Of a stretch of 20,177 nt of DNA, positions 1,360-20,062 are shown piece by piece. Within the stretch, counting starts at the first letter, position 1, and each line of letters starts with the position of its first letter. This DNA is from Candidatus Gerdarchaeota archaeon (lineage in GTDB: Archaea; Asgardarchaeota; Heimdallarchaeia; JABLTI01): positions 1 to 20,177 of the forward strand of contig JAEORM010000166.1 in NCBI GenBank assembly GCA_016840905.1, written 5' to 3'. The notes under the pieces were generated by a model. That model saw only the letters and a program-made list of their open reading frames with translations, made no database searches and had not been told where the DNA came from. A program made the position numbers and the translations under genes.

Positions 1360-1420
1360 AAATTTTTACCTTTTTCCTTTGTATATTGATTCTTAAAAAA
1401 GAGTTGATGTCTTAGTGTCA

Positions 1421-2617
1421 ATGATTAAAAAATGTGAGCGTTGTGGGATTCAAAACAACGAATATGTAAGAATTACTGCAACATGTAAAAAGTGCGGAAA
1501 ATCTTATTTGCTCTGCACAACATGCAAATTATCTTGGAAATCTCAAAAATGCCCTTCATGTGATGCATGGATTGGCAGTGGTACTTGGGATTTTTTGGAT
1601 ATGAAAGGCAGTGGAACTGTAACTGATGATATGTCTAGTTATCTAGAAGCTTTCAGCGCAAGTAATGATTATATTAAATTATGGAATGAAAGTGCTGATA
1701 AAAGAAAAGAAGAACAAGCTAAAGATGGTGATTCTAAACATCGTGGTATAGATTTAACAGCTAATGAAGTTTCCTTCTTAAGAAATCTAGAAAATGTGAT
1801 ATATGAACCTATTTTCACGGTTGGTGATGATCGTAGTAATTATGTCATTATAGAAGATGGTCATGTGACCACTTTACGATTACGAAACAGTCATTTAACT
1901 GATAATTTTCCTGAGGATATTAATGCTTTAACTAAACTACAGGAATTGCGTATTGAACGCACAGATAAAAATGCTCCAACCTTGAAGAAATTACCAGAAA
2001 CAATTGTTGATTGTAAAGAATTGGAATCAGTTGTCATAAGGGGTCAATCTCACACTATTAATATTGGTGTATTAAAGAATCTCCCTAATTTGAAGAACCT
2101 TAGTATCCATAACAATTATCGTGAATATGAAAAAGGTACTATTGAAGAAATATTTGATATTTCAACTTTAGAAGAACTTAATCTACGGCAATGTATTGTC
2201 TCCCTTCAAACACTTGAAGGCGTTGGAAAATTAGCTAAATTACGAAAATTAAACTTGGCTTGGGTGAAAGAGCCTAATGGTGCTCTTTGCAGTTTACCAA
2301 ATTCCTTGCAGAATTGTAAGGACCTCGAAGAACTTGATGTTTATGGAACAAACATTGGTTATACCTATCCTGGACAACCTTGGCCTGATTGGATTACTAG
2401 TCTTCCAAAATTAAAATTAGTTCATAATCAACATCGCCAATTATTGAATAAAGCTGGACCATTGATTACCTTATTGTATGAAAAATATCCTGTTATCTAT
2501 GAGGTTCCTGATGTTACTCCTGAAATGCGACGTGACTATAGCCAATCTGATTGGGATAGGTGGTACGATAAATACAAATCCGAAGAACTTAAAGCAGGAT
2601 GGACTGGTATAGAATAA
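1421..2617 (+). CDS. Zinc ribbon / LRR protein
   Basis: A 398-residue protein of unknown specific role. The N-terminal 50 residues hold four CxxC pairs (Cys 5/8, 22/25, 32/35, 44/47), enough for two zinc sites, possibly interleaved like RING/FYVE or rubredoxin-knuckle modules. After a linker of about 70 residues there are irregular LRRs (about residues 130-330, for example LTKLQELRIE, LPNLKNLSIHNN, LEELNLRQC). These are longer and less regular than in the divergent LRR neighbour. The C-terminus is Trp/Tyr-rich and charged. No signal peptide or membrane segment is visible. An ATG at 1421 was preferred over a GTG six bases upstream. LRRs mediate protein binding in known families; a zinc ribbon plus LRR suggests an adaptor or, if the zinc module is RING-like, a ubiquitin-type ligase, but the latter is speculation. 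Confidence 0.88.
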   Translation: MIKKCERCGIQNNEYVRITATCKKCGKSYLLCTTCKLSWKSQKCPSCDAWIGSGTWDFLDMKGSGTVTDDMSSYLEAFSASNDYIKLWNESADKRKEEQAKDGDSKHRGIDLTANEVSFLRNLENVIYEPIFTVGDDRSNYVIIEDGHVTTLRLRNSHLTDNFPEDINALTKLQELRIERTDKNAPTLKKLPETIVDCKELESVVIRGQSHTINIGVLKNLPNLKNLSIHNNYREYEKGTIEEIFDISTLEELNLRQCIVSLQTLEGVGKLAKLRKLNLAWVKEPNGALCSLPNSLQNCKDLEELDVYGTNIGYTYPGQPWPDWITSLPKLKLVHNQHRQLLNKAGPLITLLYEKYPVIYEVPDVTPEMRRDYSQSDWDRWYDKYKSEELKAGWTGIE

Positions 2618-4208: not shown

Positions 4209-6554
4209 TTACTTTAATTCGCGTGAAATTGAAAGTGCTTGTCTACCTAATGTTTCGCCTATTACTACATTCTTGAAACCATCAGATTGTGATAAAATAC
4301 CTACCCAATCTTTCTCGGTTTCATCTTTGAAAGCAATAAGCATTTCTTCTCCACCATCGATATCAAATGCTAGATATTCTGAATAACCAACCATATCTTG
4401 CATACCAATCTTTCGAATCTTGATACGTCCAAGAGCGTCAGATGCTTTTATTTCATCAATTATACCTTTATTGGCGACTTCATCGATTTTTGAAATAATA
4501 GTTACTTTCGCTTGTTGTTTAATTTTAGCAATAACTTTGGTTGGTATATCTGCTGGATCAGGTATGACCATTGTAACATTTGATTTTATTCTGGTTGTGA
4601 GAATTTCTTTAAGACGTTCAAAAATAGCATCTTTACTATAAAGAATAGCTGTTTCTATAAGTGGTCTTGGATGAACTTTAACAGCTTCTTGCAAGCTATC
4701 GTGATCTGATCTAAAGTCGCTAAGTAATTTGGCGATTTTCATTGCGTCTTGTGCAAATCTCTTATAATAATCGTCTAATCCACTTTTAACAGCAGTAATT
4801 TCCTTCCGGACAGTTGTTTCAACAATATTAGCTACATTGTTAATTGTTTCTATGGATTTTTCTTCATTGTTTTTAACACTTGTTTTAGCAAAACCTTGAG
4901 TTTCAGTTAAGACTGTTTTTGAAGTAGTGCTGATGGTATCTACACCAGTCGTTGTTTCAGAAGTAACCTTTTCCTTAGCTTTCTTTGTTTCAGCCATCAT
5001 TGTACCTTTTGTTTCACTAACCTTTTGTTTGGCTTCTTTAGTCAAAGTATCTGTTGATGTTTTGATATCTTGAGTTTGCTTGGTTGTAACATTTGTAGTT
5101 CCTGTGGTATTTCCAGTTGTTAGTGTTTCCAAATTCTCTGTAACTGTAGCTCTTGTTGTTTCGTATTCATCTTTTGTTGCTTGAGCTGTCTCATCCATAG
5201 TTGTATGCATTGAGGTTAAAGTCTCACTAACTCTGGTATTTATGTCAGTTACGTAGTTTGATTTCAATAAGGTCAAACTGGATTTCAATGTTTCAACCGT
5301 TGAACCAATTGTTTGTAACGCTTTAGTATTCTGTTCGGTTATCTTAGATATCATTATCGCTGTTCCATCTTCTACAGCTTTGTTATCTAAATCAACATTA
5401 GCAGAGATTTCCTCATTATGCTTTGCTATTAATTCACCTAGAGAAGTATTTGCTTCATCACATAATAAACTAATATCTTGTGCTGTTGTATCTTTAAGTT
5501 CATCAATTTGTTTTTTGAACTTATCAGCAATTTTCTCTAATTTTGAATTGAATTTATCATTAAACTCATTCAAGTCTTGAGCAAAATTTTCCTTTACTTT
5601 TTCAAAACTATCATCTATACCTGATTTAAATTGATTATTCAAATCAATACGATTCTTTTTAGCTTCTTCGGTAATAGACTTAACATTTTCTGTTTGAGTT
5701 TTTGTTGCTTCAGTTAAAGTAGTATTAAGATTTGTTACATTTCCATCAGACTGACTAACAAAAGAATCTAACCCAGTTAAAATATGGTCTCTTGTGCTTG
5801 TCAATCTTTCATTAGAATCCTCTTTAAGAGTAGAAACCAATTCATCGGTTTTATCGTTAATTTCATCCTTAGCTGTTTCTAATGCAGTCTTCCCATCAGC
5901 TAAAAATCCATCGTTTTTAGCTTTAATATCAGCACTTAATTTTTGTAAGGATGCTTCAGTTTTTGATTTTAGATTATTAGCAAAAGCATCCAATTTTTCA
6001 TGTGAAGATGTTTCAAAAGTATCTGCTGTGGTGGTTTGATTTTTTAGAAAAGTACTTGTGCTTGTTGTAATAGTTTTCTTTGTAGCATCTGTGGTTGTAA
6101 TAATGGTGTTAGTAGCTTCGGCAATCTTCTGATCGATATTTTTACGATTTTGTTCGCTATTTGCAGTAACAGCATCTGTTCCATTCTTTTTCTCTGTTCT
6201 TATATGCTGCTCTGTATCTTTCATTACCTGCTCAAGATGAGCTAATTGTTTTGCTACATAATCTTTCAATTCAATGACTAATTTGTCAATGTTTTTAGAA
6301 TCCTTTTCCGCTTCAGCTGCAATCTCTCTGAATGGATATAATCCTATAGCTTTGTCAACTAATCCTTCAATTTGATAGGCATAATTCCTTTCAAACAATT
6401 TTTGTAGGATTTCATTTACTTTAGGTATGCTCTTTACACCAGAGTATTTAGCTATCTCTCCAGCTGAAAGAGGGCCTAAAGCGAGTAAAGCAAGATAAAT
6501 TTTCTGTTCTTCTTCACTCAATCCAATTTTCACTAAAAATGGTAGTGTTGTCAT
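4209..6554 (-). CDS. TrmB-type regulator with giant coiled-coil insert
   Basis: A 781-residue protein. Residues 1-75 are a TrmB-type winged helix (LVKIGLSEEEQKIYLALL, then LSAGEIAKYSG and a recognition helix). Residues about 625-781 resemble the C-terminal effector part of TrmB proteins (RPLIETAILYSK onward, alternating strands and helices). In ordinary TrmB-family regulators, about 250-350 residues long, a short coiled coil joins the two. Here about 540 residues rich in Thr, Lys, Glu, Asn and Ala intervene, nearly without Pro or aromatics, and predicted to be long amphipathic helices similar in composition to MCP or SMC-like coiled coils. No membrane segment is visible. The start has a strong ribosome-binding site (GAGGGGT, 6565-6571) and two inverted repeats upstream. 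Transcriptional regulation is inferred from the HTH; the role of the long helix is unknown. Confidence 0.85.
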   Translation of the reverse strand: MTTLPFLVKIGLSEEEQKIYLALLALGPLSAGEIAKYSGVKSIPKVNEILQKLFERNYAYQIEGLVDKAIGLYPFREIAAEAEKDSKNIDKLVIELKDYVAKQLAHLEQVMKDTEQHIRTEKKNGTDAVTANSEQNRKNIDQKIAEATNTIITTTDATKKTITTSTSTFLKNQTTTADTFETSSHEKLDAFANNLKSKTEASLQKLSADIKAKNDGFLADGKTALETAKDEINDKTDELVSTLKEDSNERLTSTRDHILTGLDSFVSQSDGNVTNLNTTLTEATKTQTENVKSITEEAKKNRIDLNNQFKSGIDDSFEKVKENFAQDLNEFNDKFNSKLEKIADKFKKQIDELKDTTAQDISLLCDEANTSLGELIAKHNEEISANVDLDNKAVEDGTAIMISKITEQNTKALQTIGSTVETLKSSLTLLKSNYVTDINTRVSETLTSMHTTMDETAQATKDEYETTRATVTENLETLTTGNTTGTTNVTTKQTQDIKTSTDTLTKEAKQKVSETKGTMMAETKKAKEKVTSETTTGVDTISTTSKTVLTETQGFAKTSVKNNEEKSIETINNVANIVETTVRKEITAVKSGLDDYYKRFAQDAMKIAKLLSDFRSDHDSLQEAVKVHPRPLIETAILYSKDAIFERLKEILTTRIKSNVTMVIPDPADIPTKVIAKIKQQAKVTIISKIDEVANKGIIDEIKASDALGRIKIRKIGMQDMVGYSEYLAFDIDGGEEMLIAFKDETEKDWVGILSQSDGFKNVVIGETLGRQALSISRELK

Positions 6555-10426: not shown

Positions 10427-12184
10427 TCAAAAAGTCCATTGATGATTTTGATAGTCGTAAAGTTCGTGGAAGGGAATATACCGTTGAAAATTCTTTATTG
10501 TTTGAATCTTGTAAATAGATGGACTTATACCTGATGTTTTAATTATTTCTTCTATTAAAGGAACTACCGAGTGAGTCAAACTAATATCTATGAAACCAAA
10601 AATAACTCTGTCATAAAATTTGTAGACTACAAGAGCAGAAAAAACCTTAAACTTATTGACAAGTTGATTTACTAGAGGATTTTCAGGATTAATTATTAAT
10701 TCAAATAATACTGCACGACGAAATTCATAAACTGCTGGATGGATAAACAAACAATAGTCAATTAAATTCAGTCGTTTAGTTCTTAATTCCATTTTATTAA
10801 CAAAATCCATTAAATCTTCGGATTCCTCAGGATTAATGCCATTTCTTTTACATAATTCAAATAACTCTGATAAAGGAAATAACATATAATGGGCCTTAAT
10901 CAGATACCTAGCACAAAAAATTGAAAAGAATGTCAAAAGATTTTCATCAATGGCTATTTTTCGTTTAGCTTTTGGAGCATTTACTATATCATAGATAGTT
11001 TCATCTAATAGTAAAGTTTCATAAGAAAATTGAGAGGGATTCTCCAAAAATTTTTTATAGTTTTCAACAGTAGGTTCAATGTTTTCCGTTGTAATAGAAC
11101 TATAAAGTTGTTGGCACCGAATCTGTTGGAAAAAGTACTTACTAATAATTTCTTTTTTGGCTAATTTCTCAAAATAGTCATGAAGATGATTATGAACAAT
11201 TAAAGGACAGTAAAGAGTTCCACAAATAATATCTAAAGCTGAATTTGTAAAAATATTATACATGTATTTGGTTTCTTTTAATTTTGTTAGTAATTGATCA
11301 GAATACTTTTTGTTCGTTAAAGTAATTCTAAAGAAGTACGGATATAGATTCAAAAGTAGAAAATTGTGTTTAGCATACCAATAAGTATTATATTTATCAT
11401 AAAATTCCTTGAATAAATTATCTATGGTATCATGACTTAGTTCAAATTGGTCACCAATAGTTTTGGGGCTAGCTGCGTCTTGACCTAACTGATGTATTAT
11501 TTTAATCACTTGAAAATCCCGAGAGGGCATATGGATAGGTAGAAGTAAAGTATCTCTCTCTTTAAGATACTGGTTTATCCAGGAGGTGAATCTATCAATA
11601 GTTTCCGCATAAGATTTATTTTCAACATGACTCCAAGTAAGGATTCGCACAAATTCATCATAGATACGAATGGGTTGAGTGTCATTTAAAACACCTAGTA
11701 AAACATAACTATCCCAAGTGACATGATGGAAGAAATCATCATCATCGAAAGCAGAACGATGACGAATCCAAACAATTTGAGGATTGCTAGAAGTAATATC
11801 TTTGTATTTGATTAACCAAAGTGCAGCAATAACAAAAAGAACTAATTCAACTAAATCGTTAGAAGGACAAGCGAAATCTAATTGACAAGTAAGAGCAAAA
11901 CGAAAAGCTTCTTTGATAAGCAAATATTCAAATAAATTCTTTTGTTCACGGATAGGAAGGGCTGTAAGCCAATTAGCTAAGATAAGTTCATTTGTCTCAG
12001 AATCAAATTGAACGCCAAAAGATTTGCCAATAGAAGGGATTACTCTTGAATCAGTATCTTCTTGAATAATCAACCTGAAATTAGGTCGAATTAAAGGTAA
12101 TTCAAGATACTCGAAAATCTCCTTCAAAAAAAATGAAAAATCTTTGTTCAATTTGCCAATAAGTTTGTTATCTTTATCGCTCAT
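10427..12184 (-). CDS. Large uncharacterised protein with HTH-like stretch
   Basis: 585 residues from the ATG at 12184; not recognised. The frame stays open further upstream and a TTG at 12280 would add 32 residues, but neither start has a clear ribosome-binding site and ATG was preferred. The protein is rich in Leu, Ile, Phe, Tyr and Asn and predicted to be mostly helical, with no signal peptide and only one short hydrophobic stretch (LVELVLFVIAALWLI) that may be buried helix. An HTH-like segment is visible at about residues 237-268 (SPKTIGDQFELSHDTIDNLF), similar to those in sigma- or LuxR-like DNA-binding proteins. No catalytic motif stands out. It is divergent from the secreted Ig-like gene, with 255 nt between starts, and converges on the flavin reductase gene. 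The HTH suggests nucleic-acid binding, but weakly. Confidence 0.75.
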   Translation of the reverse strand: MSDKDNKLIGKLNKDFSFFLKEIFEYLELPLIRPNFRLIIQEDTDSRVIPSIGKSFGVQFDSETNELILANWLTALPIREQKNLFEYLLIKEAFRFALTCQLDFACPSNDLVELVLFVIAALWLIKYKDITSSNPQIVWIRHRSAFDDDDFFHHVTWDSYVLLGVLNDTQPIRIYDEFVRILTWSHVENKSYAETIDRFTSWINQYLKERDTLLLPIHMPSRDFQVIKIIHQLGQDAASPKTIGDQFELSHDTIDNLFKEFYDKYNTYWYAKHNFLLLNLYPYFFRITLTNKKYSDQLLTKLKETKYMYNIFTNSALDIICGTLYCPLIVHNHLHDYFEKLAKKEIISKYFFQQIRCQQLYSSITTENIEPTVENYKKFLENPSQFSYETLLLDETIYDIVNAPKAKRKIAIDENLLTFFSIFCARYLIKAHYMLFPLSELFELCKRNGINPEESEDLMDFVNKMELRTKRLNLIDYCLFIHPAVYEFRRAVLFELIINPENPLVNQLVNKFKVFSALVVYKFYDRVIFGFIDISLTHSVVPLIEEIIKTSGISPSIYKIQTIKNFQRYIPFHELYDYQNHQWTF

Positions 12185-12367
12185 AGAAAATCTCGAAACC
12201 TGTAAAACAATAAGATTTCTTTTCGTTACTCTTTTTTCAATATTTCTATTCGAAAATTCTGAAGTTATTTCTAAAGACAAAAATATTATTTCTAAAAATA
12301 AAAAATGGCTATTATAATCATTTTAAAATTACTTTTTTTTAAATTTTAATACTAGGTTTTTATTTAC

Positions 12368-13443: not shown

Positions 13444-14838
13444 ATGGCCGATGAAAAACCCCATCTAAACCTAGTAGTTATAGGACATGTCGATCACGGA
13501 AAGAGCACAATGACAGGACACATGTTGTTCCTAGCTGGTGCTGTAGATAAACGTTTGATCGATAAGTATGCAGAGGAATCTGAGAAGATCGGCAAACCTT
13601 CATGGAAGTATGCTTGGGTCTTACAAAAACTCCAAGAAGAACGTGAAAGAGGTCTAACCATTGACGTCTCCTTCTTCAAATTTGAGACCAAGAGTACTGT
13701 TTTTACGATAATTGACGCTCCTGGACACAGGGACTTCGTTAAAAACATGATTACTGGTGCTTCTCAAGCCAATGCTGCTATTCTTGTCGTTTCTGCTGAA
13801 AAGAACGATCTTGAAGCTGGCCTTGCTACTGAGAGAATTGAGAAAACACCAAAAGGTGATCGTCGTATCCCTGGTGGTCAAACTGTCGAGCACTTAACTC
13901 TAGCAATTACATTAGGTATTAACCAAATTGTTGTTGCAGTCAACAAGATGGATCTTGTTGGTTTTAAGGAGGAAGGTTACAAGAATGTCGTTGATCGTGT
14001 GAAAGCACTCATCGATGGTTTTGTCAAGAGCGGTTTAGTCTCCGCTGAACGTGTTGCAAACATTAAATTCGTACCAACAAGTGGTATGACTGGTGATGGT
14101 CTTGTTGACAGAGGCGATAAAATGCCCTGGTATAAAGGCCCAACCTTAATGGAAGCTCTTAGTGAGTTTTCCGCTCCAGAACTCCCAACAGCCAAACCTC
14201 TAAGAATGCCTATTCAAGATGTTTATGCTATCAAAGGTGTAGGTACTGTTCCAGTAGGAAAGATTGAATCTGGTGTTTTGAAACCAGGATTAGAAGTAAT
14301 CTTCCCAATTTCAAAGAAGCGAGCGAAAGTTCAATCCATTGAAATGCACCATGAAACTTTACAACAAGCTTTACCTGGTGATAACGTTGGTTTCAACATT
14401 AAAGGTATTAACCGAAATGAAATCAAGAAAGGTGATATTGTTGGTTACCCAGGTGCTGATGAACCAAAGTTAACTGACACTTTTGTTGCCAGAACTTTCA
14501 TCTTGAAGAACCTTTCAAAACCAGGCGCAAACCAACCAACTGGTATGTCTGTTGGTTACGCACCAATTATCCACCTTGGTCAAGCAGCTCAAGCTTGTCA
14601 AATTGTTTCCTTCAATGTTTTGAAGAAATCTGCTCAACGAAAATCCTTAGTTGCAACTGGTGATTATAATCCTGAAACCTATTTATTGCAAGGTGACTTC
14701 GCTGAAATCGTCTTCCAACCATTTGCCCCATTCATCTGTGAAAAATTCGCTGATTATCCAGCCTTAGGTCGTTTCGCAGCTAGAGATATGGGCCAAACAG
14801 TTGCTGTCGGTGTTATCACCGAAGTTAAAACAAAATAA
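13444..14838 (+). CDS. tuf: Translation elongation factor 1-alpha
   Basis: A 464-residue archaeal EF1A, the GTPase that delivers aminoacyl-tRNA to the ribosome. G-motifs: GHVDHGKST (14-22), Thr72 in switch I (ERGLTID), DAPGH (91-95) and NKMD (167-170). Domains 2 and 3 are complete (TVPVGKIESGVLKPG, ALPGDNVGFN, FADYPALGRFAARDMGQTVAVGV). KPSWKYAWVL in switch I matches the archaeal/eukaryotic type. It is longer than the typical archaeal factor of about 430-440 residues; part of the excess is an insert at about residues 127-144 (ATERIEKTPKGDRRIPG) between the EAG and GQT motifs, where archaea have only a few residues. Codons favour C-ending and preferred forms much more than those of neighbouring genes, as expected for high expression. 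It has its own promoter and hairpin terminator. Confidence 0.98.
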   Translation: MADEKPHLNLVVIGHVDHGKSTMTGHMLFLAGAVDKRLIDKYAEESEKIGKPSWKYAWVLQKLQEERERGLTIDVSFFKFETKSTVFTIIDAPGHRDFVKNMITGASQANAAILVVSAEKNDLEAGLATERIEKTPKGDRRIPGGQTVEHLTLAITLGINQIVVAVNKMDLVGFKEEGYKNVVDRVKALIDGFVKSGLVSAERVANIKFVPTSGMTGDGLVDRGDKMPWYKGPTLMEALSEFSAPELPTAKPLRMPIQDVYAIKGVGTVPVGKIESGVLKPGLEVIFPISKKRAKVQSIEMHHETLQQALPGDNVGFNIKGINRNEIKKGDIVGYPGADEPKLTDTFVARTFILKNLSKPGANQPTGMSVGYAPIIHLGQAAQACQIVSFNVLKKSAQRKSLVATGDYNPETYLLQGDFAEIVFQPFAPFICEKFADYPALGRFAARDMGQTVAVGVITEVKTK

Positions 14839-15801: not shown

Positions 15802-16278
15802 ATGCGACAAACACGTCTTACTTGGTTTATCATAAGTGGAGTTTTGGGATTACTATTCATCATCTGGGGAGCTATAACTCCAAATATAGATTTATTACCA
15901 GGCGATGTTTGGTTGATTTTACCAGGAATTTTGATGTTCTTTATTTGTTTATTTGGAATTTTAGAGGATGTTTTTACCGATTGGGAAATATCAAAATATC
16001 TACTATCTGATAAATCAAACAATAAGACCTTAGAAGAAATAGCTTCTGACTTGAAAATTACTATTGATATAGCTAAAGAAAAAATTCTTACACTTCGAGG
16101 TAAAGAAAAGCTTACAAAAGCTTTCGACTCGAAAACAGGTTTCTTTATACCAGTTGATCTTGATAGCACTAATACTTGTAAGTATTGTTTTCATACAGAT
16201 GTCATAAGTGATTTTTGCCCGGTTTGTGGATCAAAAGTGATTTCAGTTTCAAAAGAAACTAATAATCAAAAGAAGTAA
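15802..16278 (+). CDS. Two-helix membrane protein with C-terminal zinc ribbon
   Basis: A 158-residue protein. Two membrane helices lie at about residues 8-26 (WFIISGVLGLLFIIWGAI) and 36-54 (VWLILPGILMFFICLFGIL). A cytosolic helical segment of about 65 residues follows that resembles a winged helix (TLEEIASDLKITIDIAKEKI). The C-terminus is a zinc ribbon with CKYC and CPVC. No family is recognised. Similar short-TM plus HTH-like plus zinc-ribbon proteins are common in archaea and are thought to be membrane-tied regulators or adaptors. The ribosome-binding site is AAGGT, 7-8 nt before the ATG. It is the first gene of a tight cluster: the DapA-like gene begins 24 nt after its stop, so co-transcription is very likely. 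Confidence 0.82.
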   Translation: MRQTRLTWFIISGVLGLLFIIWGAITPNIDLLPGDVWLILPGILMFFICLFGILEDVFTDWEISKYLLSDKSNNKTLEEIASDLKITIDIAKEKILTLRGKEKLTKAFDSKTGFFIPVDLDSTNTCKYCFHTDVISDFCPVCGSKVISVSKETNNQKK

Positions 16279-16302: not shown

Positions 16303-17280
16303 ATGCTAATGGTTAAAAAATTCAAAGGAATAGGGTGTCCTTGTGTCACTCCTTTTAATGATGATGAATCTCTAAACCTAACTGCTCTTAGAGAATTAGT
16401 TGATTTTCTAATTAACAGTGAAATTAACGCTATTATTCCTACTGGAAATTGTGGAGAATCTTATACACTTTCAGATGAAGAATATCATGTGATTATCGAT
16501 ACAGTAGTTGATCAAGTAAATGCTGCTGTTCCAGTGTATATTGGATTACCTTCGGAAAATGTGAATAGAATTTTATCCATTGCTAAATATGCATCTGATT
16601 GTGGTGCAGATGGATTGGTTATCTATCCCCCTGAGATACCTTCGTTAAATGTGAATGAGTTAGTTAATCACTTTGAGTATTTAAGTTCAAATATAGATGA
16701 GAATCTCCTTATAGTAAATGACCCTGATTCAACAAAAATAGATTTACCTATTGAATTAATATCTAAATTATCAAAACAAAGCTCAATAGTTGGGATTATT
16801 GAACTAAGTAATGATTTCAAAAAGATACCACAAATAAGTTCTTCTGTACGAGATGATTTTAGAGTTTATACTGGGAGAGGTTTATTAGTACCTCAAGCTA
16901 TTAGAGAAGGAAAGGTTGAAGGAGCTATTGTACCAAGTGCAAATGTTGTTCCTAATTTATTGGTTGAATTATATGAAGCTTATAATGTTGAAATGATAAA
17001 TCGTTTTGAAGAGCTTCAAACAAAATTGATACCTCTTGAAATAGGCTTAAAATTAGGTTCTTTTCCAGCTGCTATAAAAGCTAGTTTGAATATGTTAGGT
17101 GTTAATGTTGGCTTACCTAGACGACCTATTTCCCCCTTACAAAACGGGGACATTGAAAAGCTACGTAACATCTTAATAAGTGTCGGTTGTTTAAGACCTC
17201 CAGTAAAAGAGGAAGACGAAGAAAAATCTCCAGCAGAAGAGGGTGAGGAGAAAAAACCAAAAACAACTAAAACAAAATGA
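16303..17280 (+). CDS. DapA/NAL-family protein lacking catalytic lysine and tyrosine
   Basis: A 325-residue protein with the DapA/N-acetylneuraminate lyase TIM barrel. Members normally form a Schiff base on lysine in G-I-K-E and use tyrosine in YNxP and the GTTGE loop. Here GIKE reads G-I-I-E (Ile166), the YNxP tyrosine is Val138 (V-N-D-P), and GTTGE reads GNCGE (48-52). The barrel is otherwise complete, with conserved positions such as GCPCVTPF, ADGLVIYPP and GAIVPSANV. It is therefore probably not an aldolase/lyase and may be a sensor, scaffold or enzyme with new chemistry. A charged tail of about 25 residues rich in Glu, Lys and Pro extends past the barrel. An ATG at 16309 is an alternative start. 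The prepilin peptidase begins 10 nt downstream, so the two gene products are likely made together. Confidence 0.88.
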   Translation: MLMVKKFKGIGCPCVTPFNDDESLNLTALRELVDFLINSEINAIIPTGNCGESYTLSDEEYHVIIDTVVDQVNAAVPVYIGLPSENVNRILSIAKYASDCGADGLVIYPPEIPSLNVNELVNHFEYLSSNIDENLLIVNDPDSTKIDLPIELISKLSKQSSIVGIIELSNDFKKIPQISSSVRDDFRVYTGRGLLVPQAIREGKVEGAIVPSANVVPNLLVELYEAYNVEMINRFEELQTKLIPLEIGLKLGSFPAAIKASLNMLGVNVGLPRRPISPLQNGDIEKLRNILISVGCLRPPVKEEDEEKSPAEEGEEKKPKTTKTK

Positions 17281-17290
17281 GCTGTAAAGT

Positions 17291-18592
17291 ATGGATTTCC
17301 TAATAGTTTATTCAATAATTGTTCCGATTGTTGCAATACTATCATTATTATATGCAGGAATTGAGGATATTTTACATCGAGAAGTTCAAAGAGAATTTAT
17401 TTGGCTTATTATGATTGGTGTCGGAATAATTTTGGATATTCTTTATTTGATTTTTTATAATGGTGCTCGAGCAAAAACAGATATATTAGCTGAAATGCTT
17501 TTATCGATTGTAATAGGTTTTATTTTGGGATTTTTACTTTTCTATATTGGAGCATGGGGCGGTGCGGATTCAAAAGCTCTCTGGTCAATTGTGATTCTTT
17601 CACCACTACATCCATTTTTAGAAACAAGGGGTACTTTAGTAAATCCTATTTTTCCAACTATTGAACCAAATATCTGGGTTTTAGATTCTTCTGTTATATC
17701 AATTCTATTGAATAGTGGTTTACTAGCTATCCTTTATCCACTCGTTCTTATCATTTTTAATTCAATCAGAGCAACTCGTGGTTCATTGTTTGATGAAGTT
17801 AAGGGCTCAACCGCAGGTAAGGTACGAAGTTTTATTTTTGGTTATAGGAAAAAAGTTACCAAAATAAATCCCAAAAAATTACATTATGATTTTCTTGAAA
17901 TTTTACCAGATAAGAAATTTCAAGGTTTATTTGAAGGTGATTTCAAAGGTCATCTTGATGGCAAATTTATTGGTCTCTACCAAGGATCCTTTAAAGGTGA
18001 ATTTAATGGATCAATTGTTGGAAAATTACTCAAAACACCCGAAGTAGGAATCAATGAAATGAAACTTGAAGATATAGTTTCTCAGGCGGAAAAAATTTCT
18101 AATGAAATTAAAATTGAGAAAAAGACTGAAGATGGAGAATTAGATTTTATTTTAAATAAATATCAAGAAATGTTTCTAAAAGAGAAGCTTGATTCCTCTA
18201 TAAAAGAAACTAACCAATTTATTAATTTTAATGGTAGAATAACCAATCAGATAACTGGTATTTTTATTGGTACTATGGAAGGATTATTTGAAGGTAATTT
18301 AACTGGTAAATTATTAGGAAATCTAGAAGGACATTTTTTTGGTAATTCTGGGAAAGGGAAATTATCTGGAACAACAATGGAAGAAAATTCTTGGCAATTG
18401 AAAATGCGAATAGGTTTAGATGAAGAGCAAGCAATGGAACGAAGACAATTACGTACATTGTGGCTTTTGCAAAATACAAAGAAAGAGACTGTCTGGGTAA
18501 CACCTGGATTGCCTTTTGTAACCTTAATGCTATTTGGTTATATCTTATATATCCTATTTGGGAATCTCTTTTTATTCCTAATAAGAATCTAA
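17291..18592 (+). CDS. Prepilin peptidase (A24) with glycine-phased repeat insert
   Basis: A 433-residue membrane aspartyl protease of the archaeal prepilin/prearchaellin peptidase group, which cleaves class III signal peptides of pilins and archaellins. Catalytic aspartates are Asp26 (GIEDILHREV) and Asp93 in GGAD (90-93). About five hydrophobic segments occupy residues 1-160. The family is usually 200-270 residues; here about 240 more follow before a final membrane helix at about 405-430. That cytosolic region has two blocks with glycine at every fourth residue: 212-244 (nine Gly, for example LFEGDFKGHLDG) and 323-351 (eight Gly, for example IFIGTMEGLFEG). They are separated by a charged helical linker. 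The pattern suggests a beta-solenoid or polymer-like module. No prepilin or secretion ATPase is nearby. Peptidase call confident; repeat function unknown. Confidence 0.88.
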   Translation: MDFLIVYSIIVPIVAILSLLYAGIEDILHREVQREFIWLIMIGVGIILDILYLIFYNGARAKTDILAEMLLSIVIGFILGFLLFYIGAWGGADSKALWSIVILSPLHPFLETRGTLVNPIFPTIEPNIWVLDSSVISILLNSGLLAILYPLVLIIFNSIRATRGSLFDEVKGSTAGKVRSFIFGYRKKVTKINPKKLHYDFLEILPDKKFQGLFEGDFKGHLDGKFIGLYQGSFKGEFNGSIVGKLLKTPEVGINEMKLEDIVSQAEKISNEIKIEKKTEDGELDFILNKYQEMFLKEKLDSSIKETNQFINFNGRITNQITGIFIGTMEGLFEGNLTGKLLGNLEGHFFGNSGKGKLSGTTMEENSWQLKMRIGLDEEQAMERRQLRTLWLLQNTKKETVWVTPGLPFVTLMLFGYILYILFGNLFLFLIRI

Positions 18593-18673: not shown

Positions 18674-20062
18674 ATGGACGATTATGTTATTGTTGGAGCA
18701 GGTCCCGCAGGGATTCTTTGCGCCTATGAATTAGTCAAAAACGGCATTACAAATATCACTCTTATAGATCGTGGTAAAGAAGTTTACAAACGAAAATGTC
18801 CCAGGCGTGAAAGAAATACTGAATGTGTTGCTTGCAAAATTTGTGATATCACAAGTGGATTTGGTGGAGCCGGCGCGTGGTCTGATGGTAAAATAACCAA
18901 AGACACTTCTGGAACAGTGGGAGGATGGATGAGTGATTTTCTAACTCATGAAGAATTAACCTCTCTAACTGAATATATCGATCAAACCTTTTTATCATTT
19001 AGTAATGGTGGTGATAGGTATTTTAGTCCCGATCCAGAATTTGTTGATAAAATGAAAAGCAAATGTCGAAAGGAAAACATGAAATTAATTACTTACCCTA
19101 TCCGCCATTTAGGTACTGATAATGCTTCAGCAATTATGGATAATTTTTACAATTATCTGAAAGATAAAATCAATATTGTCTTAAAAGAACAAGTCGATAA
19201 AATCCTTGTTAACAATGGTGTTGTTGAAGGTGTTTCGACTTCTTCCGGTAAAATCTACAAGGCCAAAAAAGTTGTTATGGGTGTTGGTAGAGGGGGAACT
19301 AATTGGCTAAAGTCGGAATGTTCAAGATTAAATATTGCTTATTCAAATAATGCTGTAGATATCGGTGTTCGAGTTGAAACATTAAATGAATATTGTGCAG
19401 AATTTACTGAAAACCTCTATGAATTCAAAATCGAATATGTAACTAAAAACTATGAAGACCATGTGAGAACTTTTTGTGTCTGTCCAGGTGGTTTTGTTAC
19501 AACAGAACGTTATGATGAGACTACTTGTGTAAATGGCGAAAGTAGAACAGATATTAATAGTCCAAACACAAATTTCGCTATCTTAGTCACTTGTAATTTT
19601 ACTGAACCATTTAAGCAACCTATCCAATATGCTAAACATGTTGCTAATTTAGCTAATATGCTTTCAGGCGGTAATTCAGTTTTAATTCAACGTTTTGAAG
19701 ATTTGAAAAACGGTCGACGTTCCACACCAGAACGATTGGCTCGTTCAGTTATAAAACCGACTCTCGAGAGTGCCGTTGCAGGTGATATAAGTTTTGCTAT
19801 TCCAAGTAGAGTTATGAGTGATTTACAAGATTTCATTACCCATCTAAATGCGATTATGCCAGGTATAGATGGTCCAAATACACTGATCTATGCTCCTGAA
19901 ATAAAACTATACAGCATTCGTATTGACCTAAATAAAAACCTTGAATCAAAAACGGTAAAAAATCTATATTTCATAGGAGATGGAGCAGGCATCACTCGAG
20001 GTGTTATGCAAAGCGCCATGTCTGGAGTAGTGGTTGCTCGAGCGAACCATAAGAAAGTTTAA
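18674..20062 (+). CDS. FAD-dependent dehydrogenase (COG2509 type)
   Basis: A 462-residue flavoprotein. The dinucleotide fold starts at residue 4 with VIVGAGPAG (GxGxxG at 8-13) and ends the second strand with an acidic residue (LIDRG, Asp32). A cysteine cluster follows (Cys 42, 51, 54 and 57), then GFGGAGAWSDGK, the hallmark of COG2509 'FAD-dependent dehydrogenases'. The C-terminal FAD site is NLYFIGDGAGITRGVMQSA. These proteins are mostly uncharacterised oxidoreductases; the cysteine cluster may bind metal or an Fe-S cluster. AAGGT precedes the ATG. It sits 81 nt after the prepilin peptidase gene, so it may be at the end of that operon or have its own promoter. Its stop overlaps the stop of the truncated minus-strand gene by three bases. 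Confidence 0.92.
   Translation: MDDYVIVGAGPAGILCAYELVKNGITNITLIDRGKEVYKRKCPRRERNTECVACKICDITSGFGGAGAWSDGKITKDTSGTVGGWMSDFLTHEELTSLTEYIDQTFLSFSNGGDRYFSPDPEFVDKMKSKCRKENMKLITYPIRHLGTDNASAIMDNFYNYLKDKINIVLKEQVDKILVNNGVVEGVSTSSGKIYKAKKVVMGVGRGGTNWLKSECSRLNIAYSNNAVDIGVRVETLNEYCAEFTENLYEFKIEYVTKNYEDHVRTFCVCPGGFVTTERYDETTCVNGESRTDINSPNTNFAILVTCNFTEPFKQPIQYAKHVANLANMLSGGNSVLIQRFEDLKNGRRSTPERLARSVIKPTLESAVAGDISFAIPSRVMSDLQDFITHLNAIMPGIDGPNTLIYAPEIKLYSIRIDLNKNLESKTVKNLYFIGDGAGITRGVMQSAMSGVVVARANHKKV

Follow-up and report, generated by a model that had tools for sequence, protein, structure and literature searches.

Why would an archaeal prepilin peptidase carry some 160 additional residues in which glycine recurs at every fourth position? 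The question is raised by the window analysed here, the whole of a 20,177-nucleotide stretch of a Candidatus Gerdarchaeota archaeon (GenBank assembly GCA_016840905.1, contig JAEORM010000166.1, positions 1 to 20,177 of the forward strand). Its open reading frame (ORF) of 433 amino acids (aa) at 17291-18592 (+) codes for an A24 prepilin peptidase with a glycine-tetrad insert. A24 peptidases trim the proteins from which archaella and type IV pili are built, and Asgard archaea are close relatives of eukaryotes. The insert is an added domain on a known enzyme, and no other carrier of it was found among the genomes searched.

The peptidase and its glycine tetrads

A protein search gives 40 matches, the first of which (P0001) is the window's own protein. 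Thirty-three homologues (P0002, P0003 and P0005-P0035), 45-78% identical to it, make up with it the 34-row alignment A1, which omits P0004 (labelled partial), P0036 (a 254-aa piece of the family) and the insert-less P0037-P0040 (262-274 aa). By homology the window protein is an archaeal A24 prepilin peptidase of the GxGD, FlaK/PibD-like type with both catalytic aspartates, in agreement with the assignment made by an earlier, sequence-only reading of this DNA. It scores 28.5 bits with the Peptidase_A24 profile (cut-off 26.5) and 33.9 bits with Arc_PepC_II (cut-off 29.9; residues 377-425), and both profiles match 34/34 family members at an expect value (E) <= 1. The NCBIfam FlaK equivalog NF040695 is not reached (67.1 bits against a curated cut-off of 330 bits). 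Asp26 and Asp93 are invariant in all 34 members and in 15/15 sequences of an alignment with ten insert-less relatives. The protein shares with FlaK/PibD (PDB 3s0x, 214 residues aligned) the catalytic Asp pair, the GxGD-type motif, the membrane fold and the Arc_PepC_II C-terminus, but its cytosolic hairpin is longer by about 160 residues. The exact position of this hairpin in FlaK is presumed, with the alignment as a guide. The active site of FlaK faces the cytoplasm, as stated in an excerpt of PMC4307647, and because of the homology the insert probably lies on the cytosolic side as well. Class III signal peptides are cleaved by A24 enzymes, according to an excerpt of PMC4858521. The gene divides as follows.

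17291 to 17905, + strand: membrane catalytic core, residues 1-205, with predicted membrane helices 1-5, an amphipathic helix and the first core strand of the cytosolic hairpin at about 198-203 (AlphaFold2; alignment with insert-less relatives)
17366 to 17368, + strand: catalytic Asp26 (homology; invariance)
17567 to 17569, + strand: catalytic Asp93 of the GGAD (GxGD-type) motif (homology; invariance)
17906 to 18388, + strand: insert, residues ~206-366 (alignment with insert-less relatives; where matches stop and resume)
17912 to 18031, + strand: block 1, predicted strand 208-247 with glycines 212-244 (AlphaFold2; domain-only model)
18032 to 18220, + strand: linker, residues 248-310 (AlphaFold2, with low confidence at 271-310)
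18221 to 18379, + strand: block 2, predicted strands 311-317, 321-352 and 357-363 with glycines 315, 323-351, 356 and 360 (AlphaFold2; conservation)
18389 to 18589, + strand: residues 367-433, with the second core strand (Trp368), a helix, the WVTPG segment and the last membrane helix (Arc_PepC_II; AlphaFold2; FlaK alignment)

Glycine occupies residues 212, 216 and every fourth position to 244 in block 1, a run of nine, and residues 323, 327 and every fourth position to 351 in block 2, a run of eight, with Gly315 and Asn319 in phase ahead of the latter. The spacing noted by the sequence-only reading is thus exact, and it lies beyond chance: when the residues of the protein are shuffled 20,000 times, with composition kept and the longest every-fourth run as score, a run of 6 appears in 4 shuffles and a run of 7 in none. 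Past Gly351 the phase moves by one residue, and the invariant Gly356 and Gly360 then come. A recent expansion of a DNA repeat is ruled out by the codons, which vary from tetrad to tetrad, and by Tandem Repeats Finder, which at a minimum score of 30 returns no row in either block; its sole row, 18539-18557, is outside both. An artefact or a frame error, envisaged earlier in case relatives should lack the insert, is likewise ruled out, since the insert is kept in 33 aligned homologues of several sources.

Position, conservation and predicted fold of the insert

Alignment with the ten insert-less relatives maps the insertion point within the cytosolic hairpin, ahead of the last membrane helix. 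About 160 residues (~206-366) replace a short turn between the core strands at about 198-203, ending with Glu203, and 368-373, starting from Trp368. The same boundaries emerge when 58 genomes of the class are searched: most insert-less matches end at residue 187-208 (few earlier, at 111, 153 and 178) and their second pieces pick up at residues 363-370. The Arc_PepC_II profile is matched near full length in most other genomes, and only from about its position 41-59 on in the nine insert genomes.

The tetrads follow the pattern xΦxG, in which Φ was described from the sequence as nearly always hydrophobic; in the 34 sequences it is so in 100% of cells of both blocks, and aromatic in 61% of them in block 1 and 45% in block 2. 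The x positions are polar in 71-80% of cells. Entropy averages 0.02 and 0.17 bits for the glycines, against 0.92 and 1.11 for the hydrophobic position and 2.1-2.2 for both x positions. The nine-glycine run of block 1 is complete in 33/34 rows, P0017 having one Tyr within it, and the runs of block 2 count 7-10 glycines in 31 rows, 4 in P0022 and P0032 and fewer than 4 in P0031. This conservation is consistent with a β-strand that has one buried and one exposed face and is under strong purifying selection. Asp223, Tyr291 and Trp368 are invariant among the family. Several conserved polar positions that point outward are acidic (223 in 34/34 rows, 237 in 29/34, 330 in 32/34, 334 in 28/34 and 348 in 31/34), and the tip loop 274-287 is net negative in 32/34, with a charge of 0 in P0034 and +2 in P0035. 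The insert has no cysteine cluster in the 34 rows and its blocks have no conserved histidines.

AlphaFold2 predicts two very long strands, 208-247 in block 1 and 321-352 in block 2. The first, of 40 residues, has ten-residue means of the predicted local distance difference test (pLDDT) of 74-88 and is seen again in a domain-only model. The linker has two predicted helices (259-277 and 286-295, the latter including Tyr291) and an acidic loop. The blocks are thus predicted as β-strands, neither disordered nor helical, outcomes that the earlier reading had named as fatal to it. Disordered repeats like those of FG-nucleoporins are ruled out, the motif here being F-x-G with a strict period and the region being ordered in the AlphaFold2 model. 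We infer from the ends of the strands that they pair in antiparallel fashion, as a ribbon by which the ancestral hairpin is lengthened. Among solved folds the nearest ones match weakly and are mostly cupin-type double-stranded β-helices, from which the insert differs by having neither a Pfam match nor conserved histidines in its blocks; the best Foldseek match of the domain model, to viral jelly rolls, is not significant (E 0.54). By sequence the insert has no relative in Pfam, nor in the PDB beyond chance repeat matches. The PDB matches 23fj and 6su9 are put down to chance similarity between low-complexity repeats of four residues, and a match to p62 (E 0.23) was set aside, as it falls in the linker.

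The sequence-only reading had likened the xΦxG blocks to β-solenoids and bactofilin-like polymers. Its β part agrees with both models; its polymer part is not supported. A bactofilin- or pentapeptide-like single-strand β-solenoid that polymerises into a filament would account for the alternation of glycine and hydrophobe, which the insert shares with the β structure of bactofilins and presumably also with halofilins. However, bactofilin, pentapeptide, hexapeptide and MORN are absent among the 20 Pfam families matched by the 34 members at E <= 1, and hhalign gives a probability of 0.4% against two bactofilin-like proteins of the same lineage, whose period is about 17 residues, by eye, against four here. 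The model's strand ends fit an antiparallel pair, a predicted two-stranded ribbon rather than the right-handed parallel β-solenoid of bactofilins, and the structural neighbours are mostly cupins, although the absence of solenoids from the neighbour lists is no proof. Bactofilin-type proteins do occur in 9/9 insert genomes, a co-occurrence that seems telling among 12 genomes, but this is no argument because such matches are widespread (129/227 genomes, 106 above the family cut-off) and 120 of these genomes are without the insert. We therefore consider a solenoid filament very improbable. Two 387-aa proteins with a bactofilin domain (PF04519), at L042:1306-2469 (-) and L039:811-1974 (-), carry VGG about every 17 residues; no paper combining Heimdallarchaeota and bactofilin was found in the open-access PMC literature.

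Self-association could also take another form, in which adjacent peptidases would be clustered in the membrane through edge-to-edge pairing of their ribbons. The two very long predicted strands may leave edges free, and the hydrophobic/Gly face is fixed while the polar face tolerates change. On the other hand, no polymer family matches, a coiled double-stranded helix would hide the edges, and the prediction covers a single chain only. Such a scaffold module appears rather unlikely to us.

Two other enlarged A24 peptidases provide comparisons. The four-cysteine domain of bacterial PilD presumably sits at another position in the protein than the insert, which also has other chemistry and no cysteine cluster. 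In both PilD and the window protein an A24 peptidase has gained a cytosolic part specific to its lineage; according to an excerpt of PMC3584216, PilD requires its zinc to methylate pilins but not to cleave them. EppA, compared by its description in an excerpt of PMC4858521, is a lineage-specific enlargement too, but by more membrane helices (9 versus 5 in that paper's count), whereas the addition in the window protein is a soluble β domain.

Confinement to one order and candidate role

A profile of the insert matches 9/227 genomes of the phylum at E <= 0.001, which are all nine examined genomes of one Asgard order; the other 218 are without it. This order appears to be JABLTI01, the Gerdarchaeales, because one insert genome (L003) has the whole-genome shotgun prefix JABLTI and an excerpt of PMC9723677 treats Gerdarchaeota, within Heimdallarchaeia, as the same as GTDB order JABLTI01. 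Profile PF06847, for the C-terminal part of A24 enzymes, matches 62/227 genomes and leaves 165 without a match. The matched frames, taken from stop to stop, are of 432-474 aa in the nine insert genomes versus 131-310 aa in the other 53 (the shortest appears cut), which bears out, along with the alignment, the earlier statement that ordinary relatives lack the insert. The window protein matches 51/58 genomes of the class, and the 42 outside the order have frames up to 293 aa. Two family members in the database, P0003 and P0031, are labelled Bathyarchaeia and Thorarchaeota, whereas in the 227 genomes no match of the insert profile falls outside the one order; they are either mislabelled bins or cases of transfer.

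Within 12 genomes no convincing other carrier of the insert was found, the best match (G007, E 0.012, 15.6 bits) spanning only profile positions 61-121, mainly linker. In the size range of about 108-345 aa the one protein that carries it is P0036, the shorter piece of the same family. An insensitive region search that recovered only three family members, including the window's own protein, adds little. Titles and opening abstract lines in the open-access PMC literature on prepilin peptidase with Asgard and pili, or with insertion and glycine-rich repeat, hold no description of the insert. Profile PF01478, run on the same number of genomes (12), finds a single A24 peptidase in each of the nine insert genomes, as does PF06847, and the enzyme is probably the sole one in its cell.

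Substrates and pilus machinery probably exist in the insert genomes, judging from their gene content. T2SSF platform genes are present in 12/12 genomes tested, including the nine with the insert. An ATPase gene with T2SSE precedes one T2SSF gene of G005 (FlaI-like score of 449 bits against a cut-off of 550), and G006 and G009 have a like ATPase-T2SSF arrangement by eye. Beside the other T2SSF gene of G005 lie genes whose products start with a basic leader and a K-G-Q-like motif ahead of a hydrophobic stretch. These genes have no Pfam name and, by this motif, look like class III prepilins. A leader filter was run on 23 insert and 8 insert-less sources; its starts are uncertain and it missed at least two candidates seen by eye. 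The 14 leaders in loci of seven insert genomes have net charges of +4 to +7 (mean 5.5), and six in three insert-less genomes have +2 to +8 (mean 4.0).

These data also bear on the view that the insert is an oddity of the lineage with no new function, a hairpin grown by tetrad expansion and kept only because its misfolding would be harmful. Neither a partner gene nor a clear change in the leaders was seen to track the insert, and no conserved catalytic-looking cluster is seen in the alignment. Against this stand its retention in 33/33 aligned homologues at the identities given above and in 9/9 genomes of the order, the nearly always complete glycines of block 1 and the three invariant residues Asp223, Tyr291 and Trp368. 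We hold it to be unlikely.

The reading towards which we lean, still tentatively, is that the enzyme is active as a prepilin peptidase and bears a cytosolic ribbon, specific to its lineage, that docks prepilin leaders or the pilus motor by way of its conserved acidic face and tip. The ribbon architecture is the likely part of it, and the docking role is possible but doubtful. The short cytosolic hairpin before the last membrane helix would be drawn out, each strand gaining about 40 residues, to form a ribbon, one face of which would alternate, at every second residue, glycine with a bulky hydrophobe (Phe, Leu or Ile), the opposite face being polar. The hydrophobes of one strand would lie over the glycines of the other, allowing the ribbon to twist or wind up tightly; it may form a small barrel-like double-stranded β-helix, with the two helices and the acidic loop at its far end. 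Asp223, Glu237, Glu330, Glu334, position 348 and the tip loop could then receive the basic prepilin leaders or bind the enzyme to the pilus motor, keeping either close to the active site, and cleavage would thereby be gated, or placed where pilins are assembled. Pairing, coiling, the cytosolic location taken from FlaK and the function of the insert are all inferred steps of this scheme.

Several observations weigh against it. The antiparallel pairing is read only from strand ends and weak structural neighbours, the domain-only model has a mean pLDDT of 64.7 and a predicted template modelling score (pTM) of 0.60, and repeats can mislead AlphaFold2. Covariation (mutual information, 34 sequences) shows no clear register of strand pairing. 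The outward face is not purely acidic, basic residues being conserved too (357 in 32/34, 221 and 225 each in 26/34), and the window protein itself has His348 and a tip charge of only -2. The charge of leaders is no proven correlate of the insert, as insert-less leaders are also basic, the ranges overlap and several leaders are closely related. The assemblies are drafts, so a second peptidase could be missing. Finally, the peptidase gene is not beside pilus genes in the window or in nine relatives' loci.

Genomic context and significance

The peptidase gene lies in a conserved neighbourhood. The order EF-1 alpha, double PadR, 158-aa protein, DHDPS, peptidase and FAD oxidoreductase is common to the window and to 9/9 relatives' loci (L001-L009), so that the window very likely comes from the same archaeal order as these relatives. 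The genes named by Pfam that frame it in the window are the following, all near the peptidase gene in 9/9 loci.

13444 to 14838, + strand: EF-1 alpha, with which the conserved neighbourhood begins
16303 to 17280, + strand: DHDPS-family gene directly upstream of the peptidase gene
18674 to 20062, + strand: FAD-dependent oxidoreductase directly downstream of it

A functional link between the DHDPS-family neighbour and the peptidase is not evident. The 158-aa protein (15802-16278, +), also in 9/9 loci, has no Pfam match; visual inspection suggests two membrane helices and a zinc ribbon. In L008 its gene is shorter and EF-1 alpha is split in two reading frames (4317-5708), perhaps by a sequencing error; L002 has a short EF-1 alpha where its contig ends. 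Three insert-less relatives have another context: a 483-571-aa gene directly before or overlapping the A24 peptidase gene (L010:6301-7947, L011:2831-4546, L012:37-1488), with only a sub-threshold squalene-hopene cyclase-like match, makes a possible conserved pairing.

Three further ORFs of the window stand out. The 781-aa product of 4209-6554 (-) has an N-terminal TrmB-type helix-turn-helix and a very long coiled-coil-like middle, with an Apolipoprotein match below its cut-off, an architecture unusual for a transcriptional regulator. The 617-aa ORF at 10427-12280 (-) has no Pfam match at E <= 0.01. The 400-aa leucine-rich repeat protein of 1415-2617 (+) matches LRR_14, LRR_4 and a plant F-box LRR model, zinc-ribbon-like cysteines preceding its repeats.

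Returning to the insert, we offer as a speculative possibility that it is a new domain with a new β architecture, an antiparallel hairpin of 40 residues per strand coiled by strict Gly-hydrophobe alternation, which would have arisen once in the ancestor of Gerdarchaeales, as a hairpin of the peptidase lengthened, and would control or localise prepilin processing from the cytosol. If this holds true, the membrane protease would be a regulated or motor-coupled one. In one Asgard order a strictly periodic domain has rebuilt the cytosolic part of an A24 enzyme, giving a protein marker specific to that order among the genomes searched. It provides a clean test case for two questions: how a stable long β ribbon can follow from a four-residue rule, and whether archaea can, from the cytosolic side, regulate prepilin processing or couple it to the motor of assembly.
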